Shown here: positions 6,990 to 22,681 of the stretch, piece after piece
How positions within the stretch are numbered: position 1 is the first letter of the stretch
How the letters are laid out: every line of letters starts with the position of its first letter
DNA from: Streptomyces celluloflavus
GTDB lineage: Bacteria > Actinomycetota > Actinomycetes > Streptomycetales > Streptomycetaceae
Length of the DNA: 64,000 nt
Direction of reading: 5' to 3'
Assembly: GCA_000720995.1 (NCBI GenBank)
Contig: JOEL01000032.1
Span: 1 to 64,000, forward strand
Translations under genes and position numbers: made by a program
The notes under the pieces: model-generated
Told to the model about the DNA's origin: nothing
The model's input: the letters and a program-made list of their open reading frames with translations, nothing else
Database searches by the model: none

Positions 6990-7007
6990 CGAACACGGCC
7001 TGCCTCT

Positions 7008-7532
7008 TCAGCTCGACCTGGCCGAGGACAGCGCGGCCACGAGCTCGTCCTGATCGCCGGTGTAGACGATCACCTCTTCGTCTTCGGCCGGTGGGTCGAA
7101 GCGGGCGAAGAAGTCGTCGAGTGCTTCGGGTGTCACGGTGAGGGCATTGGCGTCCTCACGTTGGTTGCGCTCGGTGAGGCGCCGGAGCAGTTCCTCCCGG
7201 TCGGCGGGGAGGTAGACGACGAGGGGGTGGCCGCCCGCTTCACGGGCGGCTTGCCTCCAGGCGTCGCGGGCGCTACGGCGCCACAGCCCATGGTCGAGGA
7301 CGACGTCGTGACCGGCCTCGATCTCCTTGATGAACCGCTCCCGGGTCGCCTCGACGACAGGGCGTTCGCGCTCGAAGTAGGTGTGCTCGGGATAGTCCAC
7401 GCCGTACCGGCCGTGGAGGCGGTGCACCTCCTCGTCCACGGACAGCCGGATGTAGCCGTGGTCGGCCAGGGTCTTGGCGACGGTGGTCTTCCCGGAGCCG
7501 GTCAGGCCGACGAGAAGAACGGCGAGGGGCAC
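7008..7532 (-). CDS. Small P-loop kinase (AAA_33 type)
   Basis: 174 residues from GTG 7532 (GAAGGGA upstream). Walker A is GLTGSGKTT, followed by LSVDEEVHRLHGRYG and the Walker B-like DVVLDHGLWRRSARD. A lid-like arginine stretch reads EELLRRLTERNQRED. These features match the AAA_33/zeta-like family, which phosphorylates small molecules such as sugars, nucleosides or antibiotics. The substrate is not evident. It is the last gene of the leftward glycosyltransferase operon (44-bp gap) and could modify the glycosylated product or confer self-resistance. It ends 18 bp from the convergent relaxase gene. Confidence 0.75.
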   Translation of the reverse strand: MPLAVLLVGLTGSGKTTVAKTLADHGYIRLSVDEEVHRLHGRYGVDYPEHTYFERERPVVEATRERFIKEIEAGHDVVLDHGLWRRSARDAWRQAAREAGGHPLVVYLPADREELLRRLTERNQREDANALTVTPEALDDFFARFDPPAEDEEVIVYTGDQDELVAALSSARSS

Positions 7533-7576
7533 GTGGTCATCCCTTCTGTGAGGTATCCGCGAGCTGGGCATTCTCT

Positions 7577-8443
7577 CTAATCCTGGCCGGTGTGCGCGTA
7601 CGGCCGCCAGGTGGTGAAGATGCTGCGGGCCTCGTCAGGCCAGCTGAAGGGCATCCGGTCCAGGCTGACCCGGCGGAAGGCGAACCGCGGGTCGCTGGTG
7701 TTGATCACGCCCCGATGCTGGCCGACGTGGGCGAGCAGGCGGCTGGCCTCGTCTCGGACGGCTGGCGTCTGTTCCTGCCAGGTGCCGGAGGTGAAGTGGT
7801 GGACGCGTCGTCGGAGGTCGTCCAGGATGCCCGAGCGCCACTTGAAGTGGTGAACCGCGCAGATGCGGTCGGTGTCCGGCCGGCGACCGGGTGCCCGGTG
7901 GTTTCCGGAGGCCACAGTGACGTCGTGGCGGGCGAGGACGATCTTTCGGGGGTCGCCGTGCAGGAGCCGGTGGGTGAGGTGGCCGCCGAGGGGGTAGGCG
8001 AGGTCGAGTCCGTCTTCGGGGCTCCAGCCGGCCAGGTGTCCGCCCGCGGCCACGCGGTCGAGCATCAGCCCACCGACCACGCGGTGGCCGGACCTCTCGG
8101 CCTGGGTGATGACCTCCGGGAGCGGGGCGGGGTACTGCTGGAACTCGTCGGCGTCGGCGAGCAGATGCCAGCCCGGTCCGGCCTTGTGGCGAAGAGCGTC
8201 GCGGAGCTGGGTGTTGGTGTGCTCGTGCCACGGGCCGGTGCTGGTGCCGGTGGGAATGATGCCCAGCTCGCGGCTGGCGGCCTGGAGTTCGTGCCGACGG
8301 GCGTCGGGGACGTGATCGGGGAAGTGGAAGGCGATCAGGATTCGCTCGATGCCCAGCCGCTGGTAGTGGCGGACCCAGGCGGTCAGTAGAGGCGGCTCGA
8401 CGGGGCCGATGACGGCGATCAGAGCGGGAGGCGTGCTCAGCAT
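7577..8443 (-). CDS. Glycosyltransferase, GT2/GT92-like
   Basis: 288 residues from ATG 8443 (GAAGGAG upstream), overlapping the previous gene stop by 7 nt. The N-terminus reads LIAVIGPVEPPLLTAWVRHY, then QRLGIERILIAFHFPD. This is the pattern of GT92/GT2-like enzymes, where the glycan-transfer domain starts with a call to move towards an acceptor chain. The metal-binding DxD-like motif is LLADADEFQQYP near residue 120. Acceptor and sugar donor cannot be predicted. It belongs to the leftward four-gene glycosyl operon of the element. Confidence 0.75.
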   Translation of the reverse strand: MLSTPPALIAVIGPVEPPLLTAWVRHYQRLGIERILIAFHFPDHVPDARRHELQAASRELGIIPTGTSTGPWHEHTNTQLRDALRHKAGPGWHLLADADEFQQYPAPLPEVITQAERSGHRVVGGLMLDRVAAGGHLAGWSPEDGLDLAYPLGGHLTHRLLHGDPRKIVLARHDVTVASGNHRAPGRRPDTDRICAVHHFKWRSGILDDLRRRVHHFTSGTWQEQTPAVRDEASRLLAHVGQHRGVINTSDPRFAFRRVSLDRMPFSWPDEARSIFTTWRPYAHTGQD

Positions 8444-9675
8444 CGGGACTCCTTCGTACGCAGTGAGGCGAAGGTCCGGGTGAGGAAGTCGGCTTGCTCG
8501 GTGGCGGTCCACATCCCCAGCAGTCCCGGCGCCTCGGGTCCGGGCCGTGCGGGTGGCTGGCGGATCACGGCGTGCAAAGCGTCGGCGAGGCTGTCCGGGT
8601 CGCCGACGGGGAAGGTCAGGGCCCAGGGCTGCTCGCGTAGACGGGCAGTGAGATGCGGGTCGTGGTCGGAGACGATCAGGGGGACACCAAGGCGGGCGGC
8701 GTCCATCACGAGCCCGGATTCCTTGCCGACGCCTGGGTGCCGGGCTACCAGGGCAGCGTCGGCGGCGCCGTACACCAGCCGCAGCACGCTTTCCGCGACG
8801 GGGCCGACCACGAGATGCAGGTGAAGATTAGGCAGGTCCCGCCATCGTTCCAGTACGGCTGTGTCGAGTGGTTGGCCTGTGACCACGAGATGCAGCGGCT
8901 CGGTCAGGCGGGTCAGCGCAGCATGGACGGTGGCGATGTCTTTGTACGGCCACCAGCCGCCCATCAGGCACACCACAGCTTCGGCGGCGGGGATGTTGAA
9001 GGCCGCCCGGCCGCCCTCGCGTTCGGCGTCGGTCAGGCGGCGGCCGTCGTCGACCGCGAAGGCCCTCAGCACTCCGGGCAACTCAGGGAAGGCCGTGGCG
9101 AACTGATCAGCGACGGCCTGAGTCGGGTACACCGCGACAGTCCGCCCCTCGCCTCGGCGGGCGAGCCGGCCGAGCAGCCGCACGGCTGCGTCCTCGGTGG
9201 TGACCTGCTCGTGGACGAACCGCAGGTGCGGCTGGCCGCCGAGGAGGGCAGCGGCTCCGTGCAGGGCCTCGCTCGCGGTCAGGATCACCACCGCCTCGGC
9301 GCCGGGTTCCAGGTGGCGGGCCGTCCGCAGGACGGACGCTTCGGTCAGGCAGCGGGCCACCAGGGTGACCTGGTGCGGCAGCCTCCGCAGACGGCGGGGC
9401 CAGCGGCGCGAGCAGAAGACTCTCTGCCCGATCGTCGAGAGCCCGGCCGCGAGCCGGGAGGCGGCCAGCAGCACGGTCGCCAAGCGCCCAGTCGGTGCGG
9501 TCACCAGCCGGGCGCCTGCCTCGCGCAGGGCCGTGACCGCGTCGCGGGCGATCCCGTTCGGAGCGATGACCAGGCTGCCGGGCCGAGCCTGGGCGAGTGC
9601 CACCAGCGTGCGCTGATGGTGCCCGCCCAAGCGGTCGGCGTACGGCTCGATGAGTACAAGGGGGCCGCCGGTCAT
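8437..9675 (-). CDS. Glycosyltransferase, GT4-like (GT-B fold)
   Basis: 412 residues from ATG 9675, overlapping the upstream stop as ATGA. N-terminal Rossmann half contains VLIEPYADRLGGHHQR; the C-terminal half has LMGGWWPYKDIATVHAAL, VVTGQPLD and the nucleotide-sugar binding signature GVGKESGLVMDAARLGVPLI. These fit GT-B retaining enzymes that use NDP-sugars. The C-terminal region contains many Arg and Pro but no membrane segment. It is the third gene in the operon; together with the other three it suggests assembly of a glycosylated small molecule or surface glycan. Confidence 0.8.
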   Translation of the reverse strand: MTGGPLVLIEPYADRLGGHHQRTLVALAQARPGSLVIAPNGIARDAVTALREAGARLVTAPTGRLATVLLAASRLAAGLSTIGQRVFCSRRWPRRLRRLPHQVTLVARCLTEASVLRTARHLEPGAEAVVILTASEALHGAAALLGGQPHLRFVHEQVTTEDAAVRLLGRLARRGEGRTVAVYPTQAVADQFATAFPELPGVLRAFAVDDGRRLTDAEREGGRAAFNIPAAEAVVCLMGGWWPYKDIATVHAALTRLTEPLHLVVTGQPLDTAVLERWRDLPNLHLHLVVGPVAESVLRLVYGAADAALVARHPGVGKESGLVMDAARLGVPLIVSDHDPHLTARLREQPWALTFPVGDPDSLADALHAVIRQPPARPGPEAPGLLGMWTATEQADFLTRTFASLRTKESRC

Positions 9676-10376
9676 CCGGCCACCGCCTGATCCCCGTGGG
9701 CGGCGGCGAACCTGCTCCACAGCCAGGACGGATCGTTGAGGTGGTCGAAAACCTTTGGATCCCGGGCAGCCGCGCGGGCGAAGGCGACGCCCTCACGGGC
9801 CCCTGCCGCGGCGTAGGTGGCGAACTCCCCGTCCCGGCTGTTGATCCATGCCGCTACCCGGTGGCGGGCGTCCTCGCCCGCCATGCCGTACTCACTCCCA
9901 CGCGCGAGCATCGCGCACTCGCGGAAGCCAGCCTTCCAGGCATGGAAGGGGCTCTGATTGAACTGAGTGACACCTGCGGCCTGTTCGGCGAACTCGACAC
10001 GGCCGGGCAGCGCGGCCAGCACATCCACCGCCTCGCCCATCTCGCGCAGGGCACTGCGGCGGATCAGCTTCAGCCCGCCGTAGCCGTAGGTCAGGCCGTT
10101 GACCGGATTGACCGCCCGCCACACCCGCATGGACACGCCCTCGCCCAGCGGCTCGACGGCGGCCGGGTCGAAGCCGGTGTCGACGGCGAAGTCGCCGTCG
10201 GCGAGGAAGAACTGCTCGCGGTCGACGACCTCGGCGCACAGCCGGTAGGCCCGGTGCATCCCGTGCACGCCGTGCAGACGCTTGACCGTGCCGCCGAGCG
10301 TCCGCTGAAGCCGGGAGCGCAGGCGGTCGGCCATCGGCTCGTCGTAGGAGAGGAAGACCGCATCGAATTCGGTCAC
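9672..10376 (-). CDS. Glycosyltransferase-like protein with SYDEP / DGD motifs
   Basis: 234 residues from GTG 10376, coupled to the upstream gene by a GTGA overlap. The start reads VTEFDAVFLSYDEPMADRL. It then has RLHGVHGMHRAYRLCAEVV and FFLADGDFAVDTGF. SYDEP followed by HGVxG and a DGD motif is a pattern I associate, from memory and unchecked, with glycosyltransferase-like proteins also found in phages. The DGD would be the metal site of a GT-A fold. The C-terminal half (SEYGMAGEDARHRVAAWI) is of unknown function. Substrate unknown. Confidence 0.6.
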   Translation of the reverse strand: MTEFDAVFLSYDEPMADRLRSRLQRTLGGTVKRLHGVHGMHRAYRLCAEVVDREQFFLADGDFAVDTGFDPAAVEPLGEGVSMRVWRAVNPVNGLTYGYGGLKLIRRSALREMGEAVDVLAALPGRVEFAEQAAGVTQFNQSPFHAWKAGFRECAMLARGSEYGMAGEDARHRVAAWINSRDGEFATYAAAGAREGVAFARAAARDPKVFDHLNDPSWLWSRFAAAHGDQAVAG

Positions 10377-11530
10377 GAGAGGGCCTCCAAGTAGCGAGCG
10401 GCGACCAGGGCGGGAGCGAAGTCGGCAGTGGAGGCGTGAGCCCGCTTGGCGTGCACGGCGTGGAACTCGTCGTCCGTGGCGAGGCGTTCGGCCAAGGCAA
10501 CGGCCTCGGCCGGAGTGGTGAAGCACAGCTCGGGGTCGATGTGCTCGGCGAGCCAGCCCAGGCGCGGGGCGATGACCGGCAGGCCCATGCCCTGGCAGTC
10601 GATCACGCTCATGGACCACGGGCAGCCGGGCCTGAACGGAGCGATGCCGAAGCGGGCGTCGGCCAGCAGGTTCCTGTAGCGGATGCGGTCGCCGCGGTCG
10701 GAGACGATCTGGAGGTGCGGCAGGGCAGCGAGCTGGTCACGCATCCGCTCGGGGCTGTCGTCCAGGCCCGTACGAGCGGCGCGGCGCTGGCCGAACAGAT
10801 CCATGACCTGGAGATGCACCGCACCGGAGGCCACCAGATCTCGGGCCAGGTGTACGAACTGCTCGGTCCCATAGTGCGCGTACAGCCGGTGGTTGTAGAC
10901 CCCGATCGCCGCAGCGCCTTGCTGACGGCAGGCCGTGACGGGATCACGAACCAGCCGCTCGTCACGCGGCGCGGGAACGACCCGCAACCGGTCAGCGAGG
11001 TCCACCGCCATACGGGCGGCGGCGGCCGACAGCCATGAGGCGGCCGTAGAGGAGTGCACCATCACCCGGTCACAGGCCGCCATCCCGGCGGCGAACGCCA
11101 GCAACACCGGGCGCCCCAACCCCACGTCGTTCAGCGACGGATCGAGCAGGAGCTGACCGCCACCGCTGAAGGAGAACGGCAGGTAGTGGCAGTAGCCGGC
11201 CAGCAACGCGTCAGATCCGACCTCCAACAGGGCCGTGCGGATCGCCGGCGCCTCCTCAATCTGGTTGGCCACGACGACATCCGGCTTCTCAGCGCGGACC
11301 AACGCCACCAACTCGTCGATGTCCGCGGAGAACCGGGCGCGGTACTTCGTTCCCGGCACCTTCGTCTGGTGGAAGCCGCAGCGAGCATCCCCGGCCGCAG
11401 CCGGAGCCGCGACGGTCACCTCCGCGCCAGCATCGGCCAGGGCGGGGGCGAGCAGATCCGCGAAGATCCATCCCGAATCCGCGGACAGCTGGTCAGGGTT
11501 GGAGATGTTGAGCAGGTACAGCACGCGCAT
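10373..11530 (-). CDS. Glycosyltransferase, GT4/GT1-like
   Basis: 385 residues from ATG 11530, with AAGGAGG upstream. N-terminal Rossmann half: MRVLYLLNISNPDQLSADSG, EVTVAAPAAAGD and PDVVVANQIEEAPAI. C-terminal donor half: HYGTEQFVHLARDLVASG, LQVMDLFGQRR and SMSVIDCQGMGLPVIAPRLG, the last corresponding to the E-x7-E region of GT4 enzymes with Asp/Cys substitutions. It is the first gene of the leftward operon, and its promoter region (11531-11677) is shared with the divergent XRE regulator gene. That arrangement suggests the regulator controls the operon. Confidence 0.78.
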   Translation of the reverse strand: MRVLYLLNISNPDQLSADSGWIFADLLAPALADAGAEVTVAAPAAAGDARCGFHQTKVPGTKYRARFSADIDELVALVRAEKPDVVVANQIEEAPAIRTALLEVGSDALLAGYCHYLPFSFSGGGQLLLDPSLNDVGLGRPVLLAFAAGMAACDRVMVHSSTAASWLSAAAARMAVDLADRLRVVPAPRDERLVRDPVTACRQQGAAAIGVYNHRLYAHYGTEQFVHLARDLVASGAVHLQVMDLFGQRRAARTGLDDSPERMRDQLAALPHLQIVSDRGDRIRYRNLLADARFGIAPFRPGCPWSMSVIDCQGMGLPVIAPRLGWLAEHIDPELCFTTPAEAVALAERLATDDEFHAVHAKRAHASTADFAPALVAARYLEALS

Positions 11531-11677
11531 GGAGCGTCGCCTCCTTCGTCTGCCCGGAAGGGTCGATCCGGGTCGGTGAGGGAAGGAAACCGGAGACGTG
11601 AGCCGTGACGGGATGATGAACTGGGATCACTCACGGTTCACTCATGCTCACCAACGAGGACGCGGGGCGGGGCTTCG

Positions 11678-12661
11678 ATGGAAGCGCAGGACGACGACAT
11701 CACCGTCGAGCAGGCGGCCGAGAATTTCGCGGCAGAGGTCGCGCGGTGGCGGGAAGTACGAGGCATGTCCAAGCGGGCCTTGGCGCAGGCCATGGGCTTC
11801 GACCCGTCGTACGTCAGCCATGTGGAATCCGGCCGCCACCGGCCCCGTGAAGAGTTCGCCCGGCTCGCCGACGAGGCCCTCAACGCAGGGAAGGCAATCT
11901 GGCGACGGTGGTGCGACTACGAGCAGGCCAAAGCCAGAGCGAAGCAGGCCCGGCGTCACCCCGCGACCCCGCCGGCTCCGCGCAGGCCCGAGCAGCCGTA
12001 CGCGACCGGCTCTGCCCTCGTCGTCGAGCACGACGCCGCCCAACTCCATTACGACGGTCGCTCCTACCGGCTCACGATGCGACGGCGGCTGCGGAACACC
12101 GGCGAGGAGCCGGTGACCCGCTACCTGATCCGCATCTCCGTCGACCGCTACCCTGGCGACCCTGAACGGTCGAACGCCCACTACCGAGCACACCCGCTGA
12201 CCTGGGACGAACTAGACCTCACCGCCACCTGCCGGGGCGAGGCGATGCGCTGGCAGGCCAAGCACGACCGCGACGCCTTCAAGGAAGTCTGGCTGCTCTT
12301 CGACAACGAACACGGCCGCTTCCCGCTCTACCCCGGCGAGTCCGTGTGGATCGAGTACGCCTACACCGTCGGCCACGACAAGTGGGGCAACTGGTTCCAA
12401 CGAGCCGTCCGCCTCCCCACCGAGCAACTCGAAGTGCAGCTCGTCTTCCCCTCCGACCTCGACCCGGCGGTGTGGGGCACCGAGACCTCCATGACCGCCG
12501 AAGCCACCCCGCTACGCACACCTCCTGTCCGCAGTGACGACGGCGACCTACGGCAATTCACGTGGATCACGACCACACCCGCCCTGCACGCTCGGTACCG
12601 TCTGGAATGGCGGTTCCGGGCACAGCCCGAACCCGACACACAACAAGGGGAGTTCAGGTGA
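11678..12661 (+). CDS. XRE regulator with large C-terminal sensory-like domain
   Basis: 327 residues from ATG 11678. The N-terminal HTH is at about 5-65: EVARWREVRGMSKRALAQAM and GFDPSYVSHVESGRHRPR. After a Pro-rich linker (80-105), a beta-rich domain of about 200 residues contains YRLTMRRRLRNTGEEPVTRY, WDELDLTATCRGEAMRW, PGESVWIEYAYTVG and WFQRAVRLPTEQLEV. The beta-rich part is a type often fused to HTH domains in Streptomyces; its ligand is unknown. The stop overlaps the deformylase GTG (GTGA). It is divergent from the glycosyl operon with 147 bp between. Confidence 0.82.
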   Translation: MEAQDDDITVEQAAENFAAEVARWREVRGMSKRALAQAMGFDPSYVSHVESGRHRPREEFARLADEALNAGKAIWRRWCDYEQAKARAKQARRHPATPPAPRRPEQPYATGSALVVEHDAAQLHYDGRSYRLTMRRRLRNTGEEPVTRYLIRISVDRYPGDPERSNAHYRAHPLTWDELDLTATCRGEAMRWQAKHDRDAFKEVWLLFDNEHGRFPLYPGESVWIEYAYTVGHDKWGNWFQRAVRLPTEQLEVQLVFPSDLDPAVWGTETSMTAEATPLRTPPVRSDDGDLRQFTWITTTPALHARYRLEWRFRAQPEPDTQQGEFR

Positions 12662-13227
12662 TCGACGTGCGGCCCAGCCAGCAGATGCGAGACCTCGGGG
12701 TCGTCCAGCGCGGCGCCGGCATCCTCGCCGAACCGGCACGCGCCTTCGAGCTGCCCGCCGAGCGAGACGTAGCTGAGCACGTCGTGGACGAGCTGTTCGC
12801 TGCCATGGAGCGGATCGGTCAGGTCCACCCCTTCGCCAAAGGCATGGGTCTAGCCGCCCCGCAGATGGGCATCGGCCGCGCCGCAGCCGTCGTCCAGCCA
12901 CCCGGCAACGCCCCCGCCATCACCCTGCTCAACCCGCAGATCATCATCCACTCCGAGGAGACGGACGAGCAGTACGAGGGCTGCCTGAGTTTCTTCGACG
13001 TCCGCGGCCTCGTCCCCCGACCACTGAAGATCACGGTGGAGACCACGGCCCTGACCGGAGGGACCGTGACCACGGTGTACGAACGTGGCCTCGCCCGCCT
13101 AATCCACCACGAGATCGATCACCTCGATGGACTGCTGTACATCGCCCGGATGCGAACCGGCGTCGCTCCGATCCCTGTGGAGAAGTACCGGCAGACCGGC
13201 CGAGGCTGGGTATATGACGGTGCCTGA
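12658..13227 (+). CDS. def: Peptide deformylase, accessory copy
   Basis: 189 residues from GTG 12658 (AGGGGAG upstream). It removes the formyl group from N-terminal Met of nascent proteins, using a bound metal. All three signatures are present: motif I GMGLAAPQ (Gln69), motif II EGCLS (Cys109) and motif III HHEIDHLDG (His151, Glu152, His155), so it should be active. It lies on a mobile element and is coupled to an XRE regulator, unlike a housekeeping def gene. It may deformylate a dedicated substrate or protect against deformylase inhibitors; neither is proven by sequence. The decayed copy at 18305 shows the XRE-def pair moves as a unit. Confidence 0.92.
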   Translation: MIDVRPSQQMRDLGVVQRGAGILAEPARAFELPAERDVAEHVVDELFAAMERIGQVHPFAKGMGLAAPQMGIGRAAAVVQPPGNAPAITLLNPQIIIHSEETDEQYEGCLSFFDVRGLVPRPLKITVETTALTGGTVTTVYERGLARLIHHEIDHLDGLLYIARMRTGVAPIPVEKYRQTGRGWVYDGA

Positions 13228-13437
13228 TCCAACAGCCGCTGTCCATGCATTACACGTTTGTCAACGGCCACGACGTCCGTCGGACAGGAACTGAGCCTCT
13301 GCCATGAGGTGCCATGCAGTGGCTCCTTCTCGGAGGTGAGTCGGTTCGTTGATCAGTTGTCTGAAGCGCCAGCCCATATCCCGGAGTTGCTGATTCACTA
13401 TCCGTCGAAAGTGCGGACACAACGGGGAGGGGACACC

Positions 13438-13848
13438 GTGGACCCGACACTCATCGCCTTGGCCAGTGCGGGAGGTACCGCCGTGGTATCGGCGATGGCA
13501 ACGGACGGATGGAACACGCTTCGATCAGGCGTCGTCACATTGTGGCAACAGTTTCGCCCGAACTCCGCTGGTGAACTGGAACGGGAACTTGAGACGACCC
13601 GTTCGACTCTTCTCGCAGCCCCTGCCAGCGAAGTCGAACAGGTCCGTCAGGCTCTTCAGTCCGCCTGGCAAGGGCGGATGCTGACTCTCTTCCTGGAGGA
13701 TCCGGTGGCTGCATCGGAGTTCGAAGCCTTGCTGTCGAGGCTCGGGGAAGCTGGCTCGCCCCGGACGAATACCAGTTTCCACGCCGAGGTCCGTGATCAC
13801 GGACGCGTGTATCAAGCCGGTGGGAATCAGTTCATCAGCGAGCGATGA
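13438..13848 (+). CDS. Small protein with C-terminal GRVYQAG motif
   Basis: 136 residues from GTG 13438, with a strong GGGGAGGGG site 6 bases upstream. The N-terminus VDPTLIALASAGGTAVVSAM is hydrophobic and may contact membrane. The middle is helical and charged (GELERELETTRSTLLAAPAS, EVEQVRQALQSAWQ). The C-terminus ends FHAEVRDHGRVYQAGGNQFI. The motif GRVYQAG is shared with the next two genes. The stop overlaps the next start as ATGA, so these are translationally coupled. Function not recognised. I infer that it is the soluble or peripheral partner that meets the two membrane proteins through the shared motif. Confidence 0.75.
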   Translation: MDPTLIALASAGGTAVVSAMATDGWNTLRSGVVTLWQQFRPNSAGELERELETTRSTLLAAPASEVEQVRQALQSAWQGRMLTLFLEDPVAASEFEALLSRLGEAGSPRTNTSFHAEVRDHGRVYQAGGNQFISER

Positions 13849-14559
13849 GCACGGGCCACTGGGACCACGAAGACGACGCCCCTTGGCACATGCGCGCCAG
13901 CGCCGAGGATGAGGGGCGCGTCTACCAAGCAGGCCGTGATCAACACATCACGGAGTTTCACTTTCATGGCTCACCTCCTGACGTAGACGACGATGACGAC
14001 GAGGATGAAGACGACGACTGGGGCTACTACGAGACGGGAGGCAGTTCCTGGGGCGGGATCTGGGAGACGTTGCTTAGCGTCCTTCTCGCCTTGGCCCCAC
14101 TGCTTCCACTTTCGATCGCGGGCGCCAGCACGCGCGCCGTGTGGACCGACAAGTCCGACCCATCGACTTGGTGGTCCGTGCTCTACTCGCTGGGAGCCGT
14201 CATCGTGGGTGCAACGTGCTTCATCGTCCTTCGTGAACGCCTGTCCTACAGGTCGCACCTGATCGACAGGTTTTCCTGGCTGTACGTACCTGTGGGCCTT
14301 GGCGTCTTCGCCTACTACATCATTGGGGACCCTGCCGGGCTTCAGCTCAAGTTCATCGGTGACATCGGCCTGGAGTGTGCTCGTAAGCTCGGCTCTCTGT
14401 GATCCCCCCAAGCAAGTGCTGGCTGTCCACCAGCATCAGGAGAAAGCAGCGATGAAGGCGAAAGGCCGGCACGGTGAAGAGCACTCTCGGTGGAACATGC
14501 ATGCCCAGGCCGAGGGCGAGGGACGCGTGTATCAAGCCGGTGGCGACCAGCATCTGACG
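13801..14559 (+). repeat. Three coding copies of the GRVYQAG-x-(D/N)-Q motif
   Basis: The motif is encoded at 13801-13839, 13914-13952 and 14521-14559, in three different genes and always in frame. Copies one and three share 23 identical bp. Copy two differs mostly at third codon positions, so protein selection rather than recent DNA copying keeps the motif. Confidence 0.75.
13845..14402 (+). CDS. Three-helix membrane protein with N-terminal GRVYQAG motif
   Basis: 185 residues from ATG 13845. The N-terminal cytosolic part contains WHMRASAEDEGRVYQAG then RDQHITEFHFHG. A strongly acidic run (about 11 Asp/Glu residues at about 46-60) follows. Three hydrophobic segments are visible: LLSVLLALAPLLPLSIAGA, VLYSLGAVIVGATCFIVL and WLYVPVGLGVFAYYII. 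The shape (short motif, acidic linker, membrane domain) resembles small membrane effectors in conflict systems, but no known family was recognised. It is coupled upstream by ATGA overlap and followed by the third motif protein 49 bp on. Confidence 0.75.
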   Translation: MSTGHWDHEDDAPWHMRASAEDEGRVYQAGRDQHITEFHFHGSPPDVDDDDDEDEDDDWGYYETGGSSWGGIWETLLSVLLALAPLLPLSIAGASTRAVWTDKSDPSTWWSVLYSLGAVIVGATCFIVLRERLSYRSHLIDRFSWLYVPVGLGVFAYYIIGDPAGLQLKFIGDIGLECARKLGSL

Positions 14560-14826
14560 ATTCACGTTCAAGGAGTGGAGCCAGACTCCGGGTCAGAACC
14601 ACACAGGCTGGGCGCACTAATGCCGCTCGTCAGACTGGCCCAGTTTGTATTAGTCCTCGCCTTCGTCGTCTGTGCCATGGCCACCGGTCTGGTCCTCTAC
14701 AGTGGCGGCTTCACAGTCGAGTTCCTTAAGGGCCTAGGGCTCACCTCAGGAATCCTGGCGCTGCTGTTGGTCGTCGAGCGAATGACAACGGGTCGCTGGC
14801 ACAGGTGGTCACGCCCGCGCCGGTGA
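14452..14826 (+). CDS. Two-helix membrane protein with N-terminal GRVYQAG motif; contains TTA codon
   Basis: 124 residues from ATG 14452 (GGAGAAAG upstream). The N-terminus reads WNMHAQAEGEGRVYQAG followed by GDQHLTIHVQG, so it matches the second gene over about 28 residues. Two hydrophobic segments follow: LAQFVLVLAFVVCAMATGLV and GLTSGILALLLVVE, and the C-terminus is basic. Codon 67 at 14650-14652 is TTA (Leu), which in Streptomyces needs the developmentally controlled bldA tRNA, so synthesis is probably tied to late growth. The 23 bp at 14521-14543 are identical to 13801-13823. Function unknown. Confidence 0.72.
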   Translation: MKAKGRHGEEHSRWNMHAQAEGEGRVYQAGGDQHLTIHVQGVEPDSGSEPHRLGALMPLVRLAQFVLVLAFVVCAMATGLVLYSGGFTVEFLKGLGLTSGILALLLVVERMTTGRWHRWSRPRR

Positions 14827-14932
14827 GCAGCGCGCCGGTAGGTGCCTTCCGTGAACTGATCGTTCGAGGGACGATACCGGGTCTCCGACACGGGCGTTCC
14901 GGGGGCTTGGGGACTATGAGCTGGTCGCCGGG

Positions 14933-15508
14933 TCACCGCTCCCAGTACTTCGCCACCGCCTGCGCGTACGCTACCCGGTGGTCGAGCCCGTCACCCGGGA
15001 CACGGAACCGGCCGCGCGCGGACTCGGTCAGGGCCGCTCGGCTGAAGGGCTCACCCGGTCGCTTCCAGGCCGTTCGCAGTGGGGAGCCGATGCCGTCGAA
15101 GGGGACGTCGGAGAGCGCCATGCCAACCAGGTAGAGCAGGACGAACGGCAGCAGCACCAGCCACAAGAGCAGGGATGGCGCAGTCCCTTCCCGACCGCGC
15201 AGCACCGTGCCGTCGGGCAGGTGGATCTCGTACGTGGGCCGCCGCCGCTTCTTGCGTGGCGGCAGGCGCAGTTCAGCCAGGTGCTCGTGGTCCGGGGTGA
15301 GCACGGCGAGGTGGCCGCCGTTCTGCCGGACGATCACGGCGAGTGGCTCGGCACCGGCAGGGTCGGCGGCGAGGGTGAAGCGTGGCTTGCATCCGTCGGG
15401 TAGAGGGTGACCGTTGGGGGCGCCATGGTGTACGTGGACGGCGGCGGCATCTCGGGGGCGCAGTTCGTAGCGCTTGGCGTCGGGGTGGCGGGTGAAGGTG
15501 AGCGTCAT
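14933..15508 (-). CDS. Hypothetical single-pass membrane protein
   Basis: 191 residues from ATG 15508. No family was recognised. The first 100 residues look like a soluble beta-rich domain (YELRPRDAAAVHVHHGAPNG, LAVIVRQNGGHLAVLTPDHE). A basic stretch PPRKKRRRPTYEIHL follows, and one membrane segment LLLWLVLLPFVLLYLVGMAL at about 115-135. It is the last gene of the leftward group that starts with the WXG100 gene (30-bp gap to the gene before), so a role as partner or immunity-type protein for the secreted products is possible but unproven. It ends 106 bp from the convergent motif protein gene. Confidence 0.65.
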   Translation of the reverse strand: MTLTFTRHPDAKRYELRPRDAAAVHVHHGAPNGHPLPDGCKPRFTLAADPAGAEPLAVIVRQNGGHLAVLTPDHEHLAELRLPPRKKRRRPTYEIHLPDGTVLRGREGTAPSLLLWLVLLPFVLLYLVGMALSDVPFDGIGSPLRTAWKRPGEPFSRAALTESARGRFRVPGDGLDHRVAYAQAVAKYWER

Positions 15509-15538
15509 GGAGTGTCTCGTCTCGTCATGTCGGATCTC

Positions 15539-16192
15539 CTAACCGAACACCGCGCGCACGTCGCCGGCCGCTGGCGGCTCCGGAAGGTCGTCCGCCTGCT
15601 CCGCCGGGCGGATGACCAAGGACTCACCGATCTGCCGCAGGATGCCCGTGTACCGCGGCAGGTCGTCGAAGCACGGCGTCGTGAGAGCGAGCACCACCAG
15701 CCAGCCCCGGACCGGAGCGGGTATGTACAACTCGACGTGGGCGAACCCCAGTGACGGAAGGACGGCCTCGCCCTCCGTCTCGGTGGCGTGCAGGGAGAGC
15801 ACGGCTGGGCCGCAGGGCAGGTCCACCCGGGCGACGCTGCGGTGCTCGTCGAAGGAGAGCGTCTCTTGGAATGATGCGGCGACGATTTCCGGCTCCTCCG
15901 GGTCCACGGCATCCGCCCGTACCAGGAGGTGGGCGGTGCTCGCGGCGCCGTCCTCCGTCTCGTAGAGGGCGACGGACGCGTGAAGGACGTTGTCGGCGGT
16001 CAGAGCCGTCGTGAGGTCGGAATAAACGACGGCGGTGGTCTCGCGCTGGAACTCCGTACCGCCCGGCCAGATCTTCTCCGCCAGCTCCCACAAGGCGGCG
16101 TCGAGAACGTCCGGCGGGAGGTGCAGCGGCAGCTCGTGGAAACCCTCTGGAGTGTCCAGGGTGAGCGACACATTCTGCGGGTACGCGGACAT
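15539..16192 (-). CDS. Hypothetical protein of the WXG gene group
   Basis: 217 residues from ATG 16192, overlapping the stop of the previous gene by one base (TGATG), so translationally coupled. The start reads MSAYPQNVSLTLDTPEGFHE and is followed by an alternation of beta strands and acidic helices: LPPDVLDAALWELAEKIWPG and WLVVLALTTPCFDDLPRYTG. No signal peptide or membrane segment. Proteins of about this length and shape commonly follow WXG-type secretion substrates in Streptomyces and may be chaperones or antitoxins. No catalytic motif was seen. Confidence 0.65.
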   Translation of the reverse strand: MSAYPQNVSLTLDTPEGFHELPLHLPPDVLDAALWELAEKIWPGGTEFQRETTAVVYSDLTTALTADNVLHASVALYETEDGAASTAHLLVRADAVDPEEPEIVAASFQETLSFDEHRSVARVDLPCGPAVLSLHATETEGEAVLPSLGFAHVELYIPAPVRGWLVVLALTTPCFDDLPRYTGILRQIGESLVIRPAEQADDLPEPPAAGDVRAVFG

Positions 16193-17643
16193 CAGAGCCT
16201 CCCCGCAGCCGGCGTACTGGGATCAGTGAGCTGGCTGTGGGCGTCGATGGCCACACCCGGCACCTGCTGGGCCAACTGCGGGCCCTTGGACCACCAGGAG
16301 AGCGGGTCGATGGATCCATCGGCTCTCATGGCCCCGCGCAGGGACGTCTTGACAGCTTCGGGCGTGAGGCCGCTGTCGAGAACCTTGGTGAGGCCCTTGC
16401 TGAGCCCCGCCTCCTTGAGGCTCGCCCCCGCGACATCCTGGACGTGGCTGGTCCACGCCAGCTTCATGCGGTTGCCGAACCCGGTGGTGGTGAAGACCTC
16501 GCTGCCGTGCACGTACTCCGGACCCCTCCCGAAGACTGACCTGCCCGTCAGGGCCCGGCCGGTGAATCCGGCGTCCCGCAGGGCCTCGATCTTCTTGACC
16601 TTGTCGATGGAGTTGATGGTGCGGCCTTCAATCTGCGCCACTTTCATGGACACCTTGGCCCCCTTCGCCGCGACGGTGCCGAACTTCCCGAACGGGATCA
16701 CCCCGATACCGTCGCCCACGAGGTCCATCACCCCTACGTCCGCGCCGCCGAGCTTCGCCGCCCCGTGCGTGGCGAGGGCTCCGAGGGAGGCACCCGCGCT
16801 GGCGAGGGCCAAGGCGCCGGAGAGCGGCGGGCACCACAGGGTGAGCAGTGAGGCGACACCCAGGATGCTGGAGGCGATCGAGAGCCAGTCGCCGATCTCT
16901 TTCAGCAGGTCGGCGTGTTTGGTGCACCATTCTTGGATGCTGTGGCCCATGCGGGTGAAGAAGTCGCCAAGGCTTTCCCAGAACCCCGGGTCAGGTGCGT
17001 TCTCCGTGGCTCGCCGGATGCGGTCGGCGACGCCCCGAGCCTCGTCCTGGTGGTTGCCGAGGAGTTCCTCGGCCTTCTTGACGATCGCCTCCAGCTCGTG
17101 GGTGGCGGAGTCCAGACGGCTGCGGGCGGAGTCGAGGGCCGTGTCCGCCTTGTCCAGACGATCGCTCGCCGCGTCTATCCTCTTCTGCGCGGAGTCCAGG
17201 GCAGCCTGGTCGGTGTAGTAGGCGCCCGCCAGGCGCAGGTCCGGGTTGGCGGCAGCCTCGTTGTACGCCTTGACCGCGTGCTCGCTCTCGGTTTTTCGGG
17301 TGGCCACCGTCTGCTTGGCCGCGGCAGCCTCCGATTCGTACTGACGCCCCTTGGTCTGGTACGAGGAGAGTGCGGTATGCCAGGAGCGGAGCTGGGTGAC
17401 GGCGTCGCGCATGGCATCGCGGCTGTCGCTCACGTACTTCGGCAGATCGCCGACCTTCTCCGCGAACGCCTTCGCCGCGTCGCCCTCCCAGTCGCCGCCG
17501 CCCTTGCCGATGCGGGACAGGACGGCGTGGGCGGAGTCCAGGGAACGCTTGGCCGTGTCGAGCTTGCCGGTGAGGGAGTCGATGGAACCCAGCTCGCCGG
17601 GCGCCGGGTTGAAGCCGAGGGCGGGGAAGTCTCGCGTGGTCAT
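16192..17643 (-). CDS. Large WXG-domain protein, type VII secretion-type substrate
   Basis: 483 residues from ATG 17643. Residues 1-100 form a WXG/LXG-like helical hairpin with the motif GGDWEGDAAKAF (WEG). A long coiled-coil region follows at about 100-220 (SAQKRIDAASDRLDKADTAL). A hydrophobic middle at about 255-320 reads IASSILGVASLLTLWCPPLS. The C-terminal 150 residues (ALRDAGFTGRALTGRSVFGR, SWWSKGPQLAQQV) match no toxin domain I know. It follows the WXG100 gene by 61 bp and is coupled to the next gene. It is probably exported by a chromosomal ESX-like system, since no secretion ATPase is in the window. Confidence 0.75.
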   Translation of the reverse strand: MTTRDFPALGFNPAPGELGSIDSLTGKLDTAKRSLDSAHAVLSRIGKGGGDWEGDAAKAFAEKVGDLPKYVSDSRDAMRDAVTQLRSWHTALSSYQTKGRQYESEAAAAKQTVATRKTESEHAVKAYNEAAANPDLRLAGAYYTDQAALDSAQKRIDAASDRLDKADTALDSARSRLDSATHELEAIVKKAEELLGNHQDEARGVADRIRRATENAPDPGFWESLGDFFTRMGHSIQEWCTKHADLLKEIGDWLSIASSILGVASLLTLWCPPLSGALALASAGASLGALATHGAAKLGGADVGVMDLVGDGIGVIPFGKFGTVAAKGAKVSMKVAQIEGRTINSIDKVKKIEALRDAGFTGRALTGRSVFGRGPEYVHGSEVFTTTGFGNRMKLAWTSHVQDVAGASLKEAGLSKGLTKVLDSGLTPEAVKTSLRGAMRADGSIDPLSWWSKGPQLAQQVPGVAIDAHSQLTDPSTPAAGRL

Positions 17644-17704
17644 GGAGGCACCTGCCGGAGGTCAGAGAGAGGGACGGTTCGGGTGAACGCGAACTGTGCG
17701 GCGC

Positions 17705-18001
17705 CTACTTGGCGTTCTTCGCGAAGGCGTCACGAAGTGCGTGCTCCAACGACTCGTAGTTCTGCTTGACCTGCTTCAGCTTCTCCTCGATCGCCTGGGT
17801 ACCATCGGCGATCTTCTTGATGGCGTTGTCCCAGCTGTCGTGGAACTCGTCGCAGGCGTTGTCCAGGGCCTCCGCTCCCGTCGACTTCGGGCCGGTGTCC
17901 TTCATCGCGCCGAGCGCCTTGCGCATGTTGTCCTGGCTGTCGTGCAGGTCCTTCAGCAGGCGTCCGAGATTGTCCGCCTCGACCTTGAAATAGCCCCCCA
18001 T
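17705..18001 (-). CDS. WXG100-family protein
   Basis: 98 residues from ATG 18001, with GGGGAGGG upstream. It has the usual length and helix-turn-helix hairpin of WXG100/ESAT-6 proteins: MGGYFKVEADNLGRLLKDLH for helix one, a turn around FHDSWDN, where the motif is SWD rather than WxG, and KIADGTQAIEEKLKQVKQNY for helix two. Such proteins form dimers and are exported by type VII systems, often carrying the larger neighbour. It is the first gene of the leftward four-gene group at the right end of the element. Confidence 0.8.
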   Translation of the reverse strand: MGGYFKVEADNLGRLLKDLHDSQDNMRKALGAMKDTGPKSTGAEALDNACDEFHDSWDNAIKKIADGTQAIEEKLKQVKQNYESLEHALRDAFAKNAK

Positions 18002-18115
18002 ACGCCCTCCCCGGCGTTCCCCGTATCTGTGCACAGTCGCCCGACACGCTACCGTCGGATGGATGTTCGGTCGCGCGGGGGTTGTTGGGACTCTGCGGAG
18101 TCGAGCAAGTGGCGG

Positions 18116-18146
18116 GTGTGCCCTCGCAGGGCACACCCAGGGCACA
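18116..18146 (+). repeat. Integrase arm-type site candidate, right end
   Basis: 18127-18146 repeats 317-336 with 19 of 20 bases identical and in the same direction. It also forms a perfect 9-bp inverted repeat with 18116-18124 (gtgtgccct / agggcacac). It lies 109 bp inside the right att core. Confidence 0.5.
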
Positions 18147-18254
18147 ACACACCGAAAAACCGTGCGGACCGGTGAGAACTACCGAGCGTAGTTTTCCCTG
18201 GTCCGCAGGGTTTTCGCGGCGAAGTCGCAGGTCAGCCCCCGCCCCACCCCATTT

Positions 18255-18304
18255 GATCCTCAAGTGGCGCGAGGGGGCGGCGCTGCCGATGGCGTCGTGA
18301 GGGG
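18255..18304 (+). other. Right attachment site (attR)
   Basis: Direct repeat of 170-219, 48 of 50 bases identical. It still encodes ILKWREGAALPMAS and the stop, a free-standing copy of the target gene end. The preceding 100 bp share nothing with the target gene, so the repeat marks the element boundary. It is followed immediately by the XRE-def remnant. Confidence 0.8.
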
Positions 18305-18667
18305 AGCTGTCCGCCACCGGCCCCGCGAAGAGTTCGCCCGGCTCGCCGACGAAGCCCTGAACGCAGGGAAAGCGATCCGGCGACGGTGGTGCGACTACGA
18401 GCAGGCCAAGGCCAGGGAGGGGCAGGCCCGGCGCCCTCCCGCAGCCACACCGGCTCAGCGCAGGCCCGAGCAACCGTACGCGACCGGCTCTGCCCTCGTC
18501 GTTGAGCAGGACGCCGCCCGGCTCCGGTACGACGGTCGCTGTCACCGGCTCACGATGCGACGGCTGAAGGACTGCTGTACACCGCACGGCTGCGGACCGG
18601 TATCGAGCCGATCCCGGTGGAGGAGTACCGCCAGACCGGCCGAGCCTGGGTGTACGACCGCGCCTGA
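18305..18667 (+). pseudogene. Remnant of an XRE regulator fused by deletion to a deformylase tail
   Basis: Bases about 18307-18560 match 11830-12080 of the intact XRE gene (HRPREEFARLADEALNAGKA, PEQPYATGSALVVE). Bases about 18560-18667 match 13125-13227, the end of the deformylase gene (VEEYRQTGRAWVYDRA). About 1.04 kb between these points is missing, and the HTH start is missing too. It is not a copy of the neighbouring DNA, because it diverges at many positions. I read it as the decayed end of an earlier element at the same att site. Confidence 0.8.
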
Positions 18668-18796
18668 CCCTCCTCGCTGTCCCTGCGCAGGCACCGTCCA
18701 ATCCCACGGAACAGGATCTCGACGAGCTGTGGTCGTAGTTCCGCCTCCTCGATCCGTCCCCCAGCGCGGTAGCGGGCCCGAGCGTACGGTGGGTGG

Positions 18797-19264
18797 ATGG
18801 GCCTGACGATGCGTGTGGTCGAGCTGGAGTGCACCGATCCCCTCAAGCTGGGCGAGTTCTGGAGCGCTGTCCTGGAGGCCCCTGTCGGGCCGGGGAAGGA
18901 CGGGGTGAACATCGCCCCGCGCGGTGGGGGAGAGATGCGGCTTTACCTGGTGGAGGAGCGCGCACCGGGGCATCCGCGGAGCCGAACGCGTCTGTGGCTC
19001 AACCCCGTTGAGGGAGCATGGGAGGCGGAGGTAGCCCGACTGACGGGCTTGGGCGCGAGGGTCGTGGAGAAGTACTGGACGAACCGGAGCTGCGGACTGG
19101 CCGTGGTGGTGCTGGCCGATCCCGAGGGCAACGGATTCTGCGTCGAGTCCAGCGACAGGGAAGTCGCTGAGGTCGTGCGGCGCTTCGAAGACCCGTCAGA
19201 TGATCTCGACGGGCTGGGACCCGGGCCCGAGTCCACCGGCTTCGTCGGCATCGATGTCCCCTAG
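18797..19264 (+). CDS. VOC-fold (glyoxalase-like) protein
   Basis: 155 residues from ATG 18797. The start TMRVVELECTDPLKLGEFWS, with SAVLEAPVGPGKDGVNI, is the typical first beta-alpha-beta unit of a Glyoxalase_6/VOC protein, and LAVVVLADPEGNGFCVESSD is the metal-binding C-terminal unit. VOC proteins bind a metal and act on many small substrates, or sequester antibiotics; no substrate can be read here. It lies just outside the element remnant and shows normal codon bias. Confidence 0.8.
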   Translation: MGLTMRVVELECTDPLKLGEFWSAVLEAPVGPGKDGVNIAPRGGGEMRLYLVEERAPGHPRSRTRLWLNPVEGAWEAEVARLTGLGARVVEKYWTNRSCGLAVVVLADPEGNGFCVESSDREVAEVVRRFEDPSDDLDGLGPGPESTGFVGIDVP

Positions 19265-19281
19265 GCAGCCGGCAGCGCCGG

Positions 19282-19662
19282 GTCTGCGGGGGAACCTCAG
19301 AGTACGAACTGAAGGTCGACGGCAAGACGGTCAGCAAGGAGTTCCGTGACTGCTACGGCAAGGGGGGCGAGTCCGCCGGTGACGGCCGCTTCGACGGCTA
19401 GCGTGAGGACAAGACCAAGAAGCCGTGGGCGCTGATGGGAGACAGGGGTGGCAAGGACAATCTTTTTGTCACGATGCAGAGCTATATGCCACCCACCCAG
19501 CTTGCCTTCTCGGTGAACACCCCTTGCTTCCTGCCGCCCGGCACGAAACAGGAGCAGGTATCCGCCCCGGCACCCGACGCCATCGCCGTCGTACCGGAGG
19601 ACCCTCGCCGCGCCCCGGCGGAGCCCACCGGGGCCGCATACCCCGACAGCCCCTTCGGGTAG
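19282..19662 (+). pseudogene. Broken gene for a small exported protein
   Basis: One frame reads VCGGTSEYELKVDGKTVS, EFRDCYGKGG and GDGRFDG, then an in-frame TAG at 19399-19401. It continues as REDKTKKPWALMGDRGGKDN, LFVTMQSYMPPTQLAFSV and NTPCFLPPGTKQEQV to a stop at 19660. The continuous protein-like sequence on both sides of the stop, and the lack of a start or signal peptide, indicate a decayed gene. Family not recognised. Confidence 0.6.
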
Positions 19663-19715
19663 ACCACCCGTGCACCGGTCCCGGACCGCCCCGGAGCCGT
19701 ATGGCACGGACCGCG

Positions 19716-19746
19716 CGGCGGCCATGTCCTCGGGACATGGCCGCCG
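19716..19746. terminator. Convergent-gene terminator hairpin
   Basis: A perfect 14-bp inverted repeat (ggcggccatgtcc core) with a 3-nt loop lies 31 bp beyond the stop of the leftward Rpf-LysM gene. Confidence 0.6.
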
Positions 19747-19777
19747 GTGGGACTGCGGGCGCTGGGCGGTGGCGGGG

Positions 19778-20446
19778 TCAGGCGTGCAGGCGTAGTCGCT
19801 GGCCCGGGTAGATGTGGTCCGGGCCCTCGTCGAGGGTGGGTTTGTTCAGGTCGTACAGGGCCTGGGTGCCGCCCGGGACGGCGGTGCGCTGGGCGATGGT
19901 GGAGAGGCAGTCGCCCGGCTGCACGACGTAGGTGTGGTCGGTGGTGGCGCCGGGTGTGGTGGGGCGGCGGTGGTGCGTACGGGGTGCCGACGGGGACCGG
20001 GGAGCGGTGGTGCCGGCGGTGCTTTTGCCGGTGGTGTTACCGGTGTTGCCGCCGGTACTCGTCGCCTGGGGGGACTTGGCGCTCGGTGCGCCGCGGCGTC
20101 CGCAGACGGGCCACTGCGTCAGACCACGGTCCTGGGCGATGCGTTCGCCGACGGCGATCTGCTGCTCGCGCGAGGCGAGGTCGGCCCGGGGGGCGTAGCG
20201 CTTGCCGCCGTAGGCCCGCCAGGTCGCGGGGGCGATCTGGAGGCCGCCGTGGTAGCCGTTGCCGGTGTTGGTGTGCCAGCGGCCGTTGCTCTCACAGGCG
20301 GCGATGGACTCCCAGTCGACTCCTGGTGGAGCGGATGGTCCGAAGTCCGCCGCAGCGCTGCGGCCGGTGGGGCCGAGGACGCTCAGCAGGGCCAGCAATA
20401 CGGACGCGCTCGTTCCGACGGACCGCTTGGCGAGGGGCGACGACAT
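19778..20446 (-). CDS. Rpf-like transglycosylase with C-terminal LysM domain
   Basis: 222 residues from ATG 20446 (AAGGAG upstream). A signal peptide covers about 1-33 (ASVLLALLSVLGPTGRSAAA). The Rpf/lysozyme-like domain at about 42-120 has VDWESIAACESNGRW with catalytic Glu52, and NGYHGGLQIAPATWRAYGG. A Ser/Thr-rich linker leads to the LysM domain HTYVVQPGDCLSTIA at the end, which binds peptidoglycan. Resuscitation-promoting factors cleave cell wall glycans and support spore germination and growth in Streptomyces. No riboswitch motif was found in the 150 bp upstream. Confidence 0.9.
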   Translation of the reverse strand: MSSPLAKRSVGTSASVLLALLSVLGPTGRSAAADFGPSAPPGVDWESIAACESNGRWHTNTGNGYHGGLQIAPATWRAYGGKRYAPRADLASREQQIAVGERIAQDRGLTQWPVCGRRGAPSAKSPQATSTGGNTGNTTGKSTAGTTAPRSPSAPRTHHRRPTTPGATTDHTYVVQPGDCLSTIAQRTAVPGGTQALYDLNKPTLDEGPDHIYPGQRLRLHA

Positions 20447-20910
20447 GAGACTCCTTCGCTGTGCTCCGGCAACACCGTGGCGCAGTGCTCGCCACGGCCG
20501 ATGGGCACACACCAAGTAACCCGCCAATACGTTTTTCGGCATGTCTGGTGAGTCCGACGGAGCGTGTTTCACTCGGGTGGCCGCATGGATCTGACAGGGC
20601 GTCATGGGCGTGGTAGATGCGTTGACGCGGTGTCAGGGCAAGGTGTCGGTGCGCGGCGTTACGGGACGAACGTCACGGGATGGGCGGTAGGGGGTGCGCG
20701 GTGCGACACGGGGCGGGCGACGGGGATGGAGGCGGGAACGGGGCGACCGGGAACGGAGGACACGGGACGGGCGTTACGCACAGGTCCCCGCAGGTCCCCG
20801 CAGGTCCCCGCAGGTCCCCGCAGGTCCGGGAGCTCGCGTAGGCCCGGAAGCCCCCGCCCGCCCCGCCGACCCCGTAGGCCCCATGCGTCCGTGTCCCCGT
20901 CACACCAGAC
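20447..20910. other. Intergenic region between rpf-like and wecA-like genes
   Basis: 464 bp with no convincing coding sequence. It contains the 10-bp tandem repeat at 20781-20827 and presumably the rpf promoter near 20450-20600. No stem-loop of the c-di-AMP riboswitch type could be recognised. Confidence 0.4.
20781..20827. repeat. Tandem 10-bp repeat
   Basis: The unit caggtccccg occurs four times exactly and then partially (caggtcc). It lies in the gap between two leftward genes. Confidence 0.9.
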
Positions 20911-22101: not shown

Positions 22102-22393
22102 GGGAACCTCGTGGGTGGAGGGTAAGACGGGTAAGTCGGGTGTGCCGGGTCGGCAGGTAAGACGTCGGTCGTACGGGGATGGTTCGTCTGCCGCTCGTGA
22201 TCCGGGGTGACGGTTGGCCCGGAGCGCGGTCGGCAGGGGACGTTCGGTGATCGTGGAGGATACGCCACGGCACTCGCCGGGACGGGGTGTACGACACCGC
22301 GGCCGGCACCGGCGCCACCGGGCCACGCCCTGCCGAGCGGCGTCTCGCGGTGCCTCGCCGGGCATCGGGCGCCGGTCCGGGGCCGGCCCGAGA

Positions 22394-22493
22394 GTCATAC
22401 CTGAGGGTCATCCCCGAGGACATGTCCGGGGGTCATACCTGAGGGTCACTGCGGTGGCATGTCCAGCGGCATACCTGGGGCATGTCCGGCGGC
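22394..22493. repeat. Degenerate 38-bp tandem repeat
   Basis: gtcatacctgagggtca occurs at 22394 and 22432 (period 38), each followed by catgtcc. A shortened third unit (catacctgggg, catgtccggcgg) lies at about 22470-22493. Confidence 0.8.
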
Positions 22494-22566
22494 ACACCTG
22501 CGGATTCCGCACCGACAGGGAACCGGAGGGGACGGGCGAGGGGACAGGCGTGAGGACAGGACAGGG

Positions 22567-22619
22567 GAGGGGACAGTGGGGGAGGGCACCGGTCCGGCGC
22601 CCTCCCCCACTGTCCCCTC
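22567..22619 (-). terminator. Perfect 21-bp hairpin terminator
   Basis: Arms 22567-22587 and 22599-22619 are perfectly complementary over 21 bp with an 11-nt loop. It lies 63 bp after the stop of the leftward DUF4232 gene and is the strongest hairpin in the window. Confidence 0.8.
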
Positions 22620-22681
22620 TTATCCCCTGCCCGCTTTTACGGCGTGCGGCCCCGACGTTCACGGCTGCACGCAGTCGGGCT

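Follow-up and report, generated by a model that had tools for sequence, protein, structure and literature searches.

A Streptomyces cassette linking a Bell-type protein to membrane proteins through a common motif, a candidate NLR-free form of bacterial amyloid signalling

We describe a three-gene cassette from Streptomyces celluloflavus, found in a 64,000-nucleotide stretch of contig JOEL01000032.1 (assembly GCA_000720995.1; hereafter the window). All three genes encode the motif G-R-V-Y-Q-A-G-x-(D/N)-Q, placed at the C terminus of gene 1 and near the N terminus of genes 2 and 3. The arrangement recalls the bacterial amyloid signalling sequences BASS1-10 of Bell/NLR systems (Dyrka et al. 2020), in which, according to excerpts of PMC7889193 and PMC8086366, a small helical protein with a C-terminal motif is encoded beside an NLR that has the same motif N-terminally. 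The cassette is probably an NLR-free variant of this BASS/Bell signalling, with gene 1 as executioner and genes 2 and 3 as the membrane receptor side. The BASS/Bell kind is already known; what we judge to be new, from the sequences, is a putative NLR-free, membrane-based signalling of amyloid type. The features of the cassette are as follows.

13346–13437, + strand: conserved segment 5′ of the cassette, a probable promoter or leader with ribosome-binding site (blastn, three-way upstream alignment, GGGGAGGGG before the GTG)
13438–13848, + strand: gene 1, 136 residues, GTG start after GGGGAGGGG; Bell-type helical effector candidate with C-terminal motif
13777–13839, + strand: C-terminal motif of gene 1, FHAEVRDHGRVYQAGGNQFIS, profile score 48.9
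13845–14402, + strand: gene 2, 185 residues, ATG start; putative receptor-side membrane protein with N-terminal motif, acidic linker and three membrane segments
13890–13952, + strand: N-terminal motif of gene 2, profile score 57.7
13980–14018, + strand: acidic linker of gene 2, DVDDDDDEDEDDD, from direct reading; acidic in the S. albus and S. muensis copies too
14070–14327, + strand: membrane segments of gene 2 (residues 76–94, 111–129 and 143–161), from hydropathy
14452–14826, + strand: gene 3, 124 residues; second putative receptor-side membrane protein, with N-terminal motif and two membrane segments
14497–14559, + strand: N-terminal motif of gene 3, profile score 53.2

A 21-position profile of the motif was built from 87 C termini of gene 1 relatives at other loci. 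Exactly three of the 99,164 stop-free 21-mers in the six frames of the window score above zero, one per gene, which bears out an earlier note on this DNA that had pointed to three adjacent genes with a common motif. In a control with reversed open reading frames (ORFs) of the same loci, the top motif score among 6,541 was 8.3. Direct reading agrees with the note on the ends at which the motif lies, on the ATGA overlap of genes 1 and 2, and on the likeness of genes 2 and 3 over ~28 residues, including a common W-x-M-x-A-x-A-E-x-E-G ahead of the motif. Its count of three membrane helices in gene 2 and two in gene 3 is the same by hydropathy, from which alone membrane segments were assigned throughout (two overlapping segments were merged in gene 3). 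The description of gene 1 as soluble and amphipathic needs amending; the protein is not simply soluble, residues 4–22 being hydrophobic (mean Kyte–Doolittle 1.51). The same note knew of no named family covering all three genes. None of the three matches a Pfam or NCBIfam family at curated cut-off or a PADLOC family (PADLOC-DB 2.0.0, 2023; E 0.01), and genes 2 and 3 have no Pfam NTPase domain; gene 1 and the motif do, however, fit the Bell/BASS scheme.

Gene 1 belongs to a family of Streptomyces helical proteins of ~135 residues with a C-terminal motif, sharing 36–42% identity with 14 homologues in alignment. With 13 candidates scored per genome, the family profile has matches at E 1e-5 or better in at least 182 of 295 Streptomyces genomes. 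Modelled by AlphaFold from 52 sequences, gene 1 shows five confident helices, with pLDDT (predicted local distance difference test) values of 94–98 in blocks of residues 1–100, and a low-confidence tail, without helix or strand, that holds the motif. Compared with solved structures, the model finds no significant match; the helical domain may still have a pore-forming fold of HeLo/MLKL/RPW8 type. Gene 1 displays the small helical bundle, hydrophobic helix and C-terminal motif that mark Bell proteins in the excerpted PMC7889193, a likeness to the published description. Gene 2, which adjoins and overlaps gene 1, carries this motif N-terminally, in an order kept in three species. The third Bell/BASS feature, a partner that is an NLR (a P-loop NTPase with repeats), is absent: genes 2 and 3 are membrane proteins. 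The cassette shares with Bell/NLR systems, as far as the excerpts describe them, an actinobacterial setting and a small helical C-terminal-motif protein adjoining an N-terminal-motif protein, but differs in having two small membrane proteins as partners. Because the defining NLR is absent, we stop short of calling the cassette a Bell/NLR signalosome, although by analogy it may work like one.

Partners were surveyed at 90 effector loci, accepting a motif from −60 to +400 nucleotides of the effector stop with a score above −7. These loci, with locus L194 and the window, make up the 92 family-profile rows with E ≤5.1e-30 (counted by eye). A motif partner is a P-loop protein at 62 loci, a membrane protein without P-loop at 13 and a short soluble frame at 5, with none at 10, in a sample that favours effectors like gene 1 and is not a random sample of Bell genes. 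At displaced positions (+1200 to +1660 nucleotides), one locus of 90 exceeds the limit, at −1.4. Some accepted partners score 8 or below: the P-loop proteins of L112 (−4.4), L115 (−5.5), L121 (0.0) and L120 (7.3), and the membrane protein of L122 (4.6). Of the five soluble cases, L111 is the effector read a second time, L069 and L079 are short or broken frames, and L096 is weak (1.4). Among the ten without partner, the effector frame of L086 is interrupted, and at L123 a membrane protein with the motif precedes the effector instead of following it. The further locus L194 has no scored partner.

Within their first 340 residues, 60 of the 62 P-loop partners match AAA_16, 50 NB-ARC, 8 nSTAND1 and 8 NACHT (E 1e-3); because of the 60 AAA_16 and 50 NB-ARC matches, we take them to be NLR-type NTPases. 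None of the 13 membrane partners matches AAA_16, NB-ARC, nSTAND1 or NACHT, and one matches DUF3558. Around these 13 loci (4.9–6.5 kb each), no P-loop ORF of ≥350 residues scores above zero for the motif (highest −6.9, at L117); scores above zero are confined to the effector and the membrane protein or proteins. With no motif-bearing P-loop ORF nearby, the membrane protein and the NLR look like alternatives for one role.

This bears on which component would kill. The earlier note had cast the two membrane proteins as effectors, in which case genes 2 and 3 would damage membranes and gene 1 would be the sensor or trigger. Both are small, hydrophobic and multi-pass, like many pore formers. We nevertheless hold this to be unlikely, because at loci with an NLR partner, such as the 62 P-loop loci, it is the gene 1 family that supplies the effector candidate. 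The membrane partners, genes 2 and 3 included, occupy the place of the NLR and carry the motif at the same end, and what is seen by eye in other membrane partners is a coiled coil or an outside region, not a toxin-like part. The note's idea of a homotypic-motif signalling set holds, with a P-loop or membrane motif partner in most effector loci surveyed, and its polarity is probably the reverse of that proposed: gene 1 the likely executioner, genes 2 and 3 the receptor side.

Membrane partners fall into three kinds. Kind (i) consists of the motif, a coiled coil (by eye) and a C-terminal membrane domain (L071, L084, L088 and L117, plus L190). Kind (ii), at eight loci, has the motif, one clear membrane helix and an outside region (L102, L108, L109, L110, L114, L119, L122 and L144); its domain matches are DUF3558 in L102 and weak IPT/TIG in L119 and L122, all below cut-off. 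The layout of kind (ii) is that of a receptor. Kind (iii) is the window type, which joins the motif to two or three membrane segments and is seen in S. albus (L146) and S. muensis (L091/L147) as well as in the window. Between the membrane part of gene 2 and that of kind (i) there is a weak relationship, with E values of 1.5e-6 and 3.8e-4 in a genome search and an hhalign probability of 54% (E 1.3e-4). Charge around the first membrane segment favours a cytosolic N terminus in 10 of 13 proteins, the others being L088, L091 and L144. For gene 2 the lean to N-in comes from the second loop only, and for gene 3 from a positive tail and an uncharged short loop; a cytosolic position of their motifs is thus suggested only. 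A structure model of gene 2 from three sequences was too poor for use. A PADLOC match of L114 to PD-T4-6 (E 2.9e-4; the only match among six proteins) was set aside, as it covers a Pro-rich linker.

Several further partners widen this picture. Seven long P-loop partners (L067, L087, L098, L099, L115, L118 and L125; ~1220–1370 residues from the motif) have a single hydrophobic segment at about residue 500, counted from the motif, L118 being cut by the locus end; by hydropathy they are a putative NTPase type, anchored in the membrane, within the NLR-like class. In a class-level search (44 of 345 genomes, 30 loci), outside the 90-locus scoring, a P-loop partner was flagged in nine loci, two of them already counted, and by eye L165, L167, L168 and L188 have membrane partners. 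The large soluble partners of L164 (558-residue frame) and L166 (487 residues), from the same search, carry an effector-like motif and no P-loop by pattern, and may form a third kind of non-NLR partner. At L188 and L193 (genome G088), a Bell-type protein ending TGTGDQHNTFRS is followed by a 177-residue frame with HLGTGDQHN and two membrane segments. This is the layout of gene 3 with another motif, which suggests that membrane partners exist for other motif families too. A membrane partner outside the Streptomyces family (L191:3708–4829, − strand; genome G474) has an outside part resembling a von Willebrand A-type domain by eye and finds no Pfam match.

If the motifs act by like-with-like contact, a partner motif should resemble that of its own effector more than those of others. 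Near-identical effectors were thinned, leaving 9 of the 13 membrane loci, and own pairs were compared with shuffled ones, a procedure that removes shared ancestry only partly. Own pairs score higher for P-loop partners (z 5.9 over 42 loci; z 4.1 over 25 loci with stricter thinning) and for membrane partners (z 4.0, p 6e-5, 9 loci). When each partner is compared with all effectors, its own alone ranks first for 4 of 9 membrane partners; among P-loop partners the figure is 5 of 42, or 3 of 25. Examples of membrane pairs are L114 (effector RVTMAGRDVNIT, partner RVTMAGRDVSST) and L119 (effector GRAYMSARDMTIN, partner GRAYASRGDMTVN).

The membrane part of gene 2 has two relatives among 84,980 species genomes, in S. 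albus NRRL B-1811 and S. muensis DSM 103493, both of which have all three genes in the same order. These were found once the acidic linker was dropped; a query including it gave no relative. Among 392 Streptomyces genomes, 11 match at E 0.01, the strong matches being the window genome, G220 and G368; coordinates of the latter two fit the S. albus and S. muensis records. Identity to these copies is 78–79% for gene 2 and 64–66% for gene 3. Across the three species, the ratio of non-synonymous to synonymous substitution rates (dN/dS) is 0.10–0.18 for gene 1, 0.27–0.32 for gene 2 and 0.26–0.38 for gene 3, so these are real genes. Such constraint bears on the idea that the common motif arose by chance, or by recent functionless duplication of one coding segment. 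The ~28 residues alike in genes 2 and 3 are compatible with duplication, but the three hits in the window, dN/dS values of 0.10–0.38 in three species and the covariation across loci leave this reading extremely improbable; a chance origin of the motif was rejected on the reversed-ORF control, dN/dS and the window count.

The next match after the three strong ones is a gene-2-like membrane protein with motif in G263 (L189:3060–3665, MSTGEWGDD...), without a Bell gene within 3 kb. That genome also has a Bell gene (L139) without motif partner nearby, and the two possibly form a pair in trans.

Window positions 5001–25000 and 16 kb from each relative share a single stretch, 13346–14842, apart from ~120 bases in S. 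albus that encode a deformylase-like C-terminal end at the deformylase's place before the cassette. Blastn similarity begins at 13346 in S. muensis and at 13364 in S. albus. With no other sequence shared, the cassette sits among different neighbours in the three species. In the window, a peptide deformylase gene (PF01327; 12649–13227, + strand) lies directly 5′ of the cassette; in S. muensis, the cassette follows an Era-type GTPase gene, by reading of the sequence. The PhoH-like ATPase after the S. muensis cassette (L147:8873–11089) seems to contain an intein, by eye and from sequence only. Nearby in the window, 16195–18145 (− strand) encodes a T7SS signal domain protein (PF21725, E 1.9e-11) and, below cut-off, a small WXG100-like protein; the two are probably a type VII secretion pair. 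No mobility gene was identified, no systematic search having been made, and the cassette may lie on a mobile element, as the earlier note supposed. A tblastn search with gene 2 of 72,556 plasmids, with phages and viral contigs outside the search, found nothing.

The genome of the window contains five motif matches: the three cassette genes and a pair on contig 10 (61200–67600; L003/L073). The pair consists of a 131-residue paralogue of gene 1 ending SRIYQAGRDLHISEP, followed by an NB-ARC/TPR protein that has GRVYQSGGDQHITEHHHHG and GRVYQSGGDQHITEHHHHGD N-terminally. It is a predicted effector/NLR pair of the bacterial amyloid signalling kind, and cross-talk with the window cassette is possible. 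The closely similar motif of this NLR gives some room to a reading in which genes 2 and 3, which have no outside domain, are anchors or inhibitors that tether gene 1 to the membrane or restrain it, with the true sensor elsewhere, such as the contig 10 NLR. We find this doubtful, on a par with the effector reading of genes 2 and 3: at 13 of 90 effector loci there is a membrane motif partner and no motif-bearing P-loop protein in the stretch examined, and no NLR adjoins the cassette in any of the three species (adjacent genes only).

We return to gene 1 as executioner and genes 2 and 3 as receptor side. Gene 1 would be a dormant, Bell-type helical protein, hydrophobic in its N-terminal helix and ending in a prion-like motif that is unstructured. 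The small membrane proteins of genes 2 and 3 would present the same motif N-terminally, most likely in the cytosol. A disturbance of membrane or envelope, for example by phage attack, might cause them to cluster or rearrange, whereupon their motifs could template cross-β assembly of gene 1 tails. The assembled gene 1 would then insert its helical domain into the membrane, and the hypha would be killed or arrested. What the sequences establish is the common motif, the gene family, the order and conservation of the genes, the substitution of membrane proteins for the NLR at related loci and the covariation of motifs, while amyloid templating, toxicity, signal direction and trigger are proposals.

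How far the motif itself is of amyloid type can be gauged against published motifs. BASS3 (related to RHIM) and the fungal PP motif have, in the excerpted sources, a Q-x-G core and then a second Q, as here. The Q-to-Q spacing differs, at 5 in genes 1–3 as opposed to 7 in the tested BASS3 peptide VDLRDAKGVQVGDGNVQINRF; spacing 5 is also seen by eye in those gene 1 relatives that keep both glutamines, although many relatives do not. In BASS3, proline substitution of either conserved glutamine is reported to abolish assembly (excerpts of PMC9815663). Membership of BASS3 was rejected on this misfit, which was judged against one exemplar peptide rather than a family profile. The spacing also lends something to another view, in which the motif does not template amyloid but is a common sort of peptide-docking tag, acting as a small folded hairpin or by strand addition. 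Against this, gene arrangement and terminal positions are those of BASS motifs as excerpted, and the tail of gene 1 is modelled with low confidence and without helix or strand; we consider a docking tag very unlikely. Fungal HET-S, HELLF and HELLP are likewise adjacent genes joined by a prion motif, with a helical executioner domain (excerpts of PMC7889193), but the gene 1 model has no significant match among solved structures and the cassette has no NLR. YQAGRDQ occurs in none of the papers searched.

An insect pathway has a similar layout. The cytosolic part of PGRP-LC is N-terminal. In Drosophila its cryptic RHIM is believed to draw IMD into an amyloid (excerpts of PMC9496462); a motif-bearing protein of the cytosol is thereby recruited by a membrane receptor through an amyloid-type motif on the receptor's cytosolic side. 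Kind (ii) resembles PGRP-LC in layout. The proteins are unrelated, however; IMD acts as an adaptor rather than as an executioner, and no large outside domain is present in genes 2 and 3, whereas eight other membrane partners have an outside region. We see about even chances that actinobacteria use amyloid templating, without an NLR, to pass signals to Bell executioners from a class of membrane receptors, several of which have outside sensor regions. Such a class would be a counterpart in layout of the PGRP-LC/IMD cryptic-RHIM pathway, and the window cassette would be its compact version with two multi-pass receptors.

The literature searched, read in part, yielded no mention of Bell/BASS proteins with membrane partners; the founding BASS paper may mention such cases. 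A 2021 review left open whether fungi and bacteria have signalling amyloids in pathways that do without NLRs (PMC7889193, in excerpt). The 13 membrane-partner loci among 90 Streptomyces effector loci, together with the window, offer a concrete, testable set for that question. If the proposal is true, bacterial amyloid death signalling can start at the cell membrane, as insect cryptic-RHIM signalling does, and this would bear on the age of receptor-to-amyloid wiring and on how filamentous bacteria detect attack.
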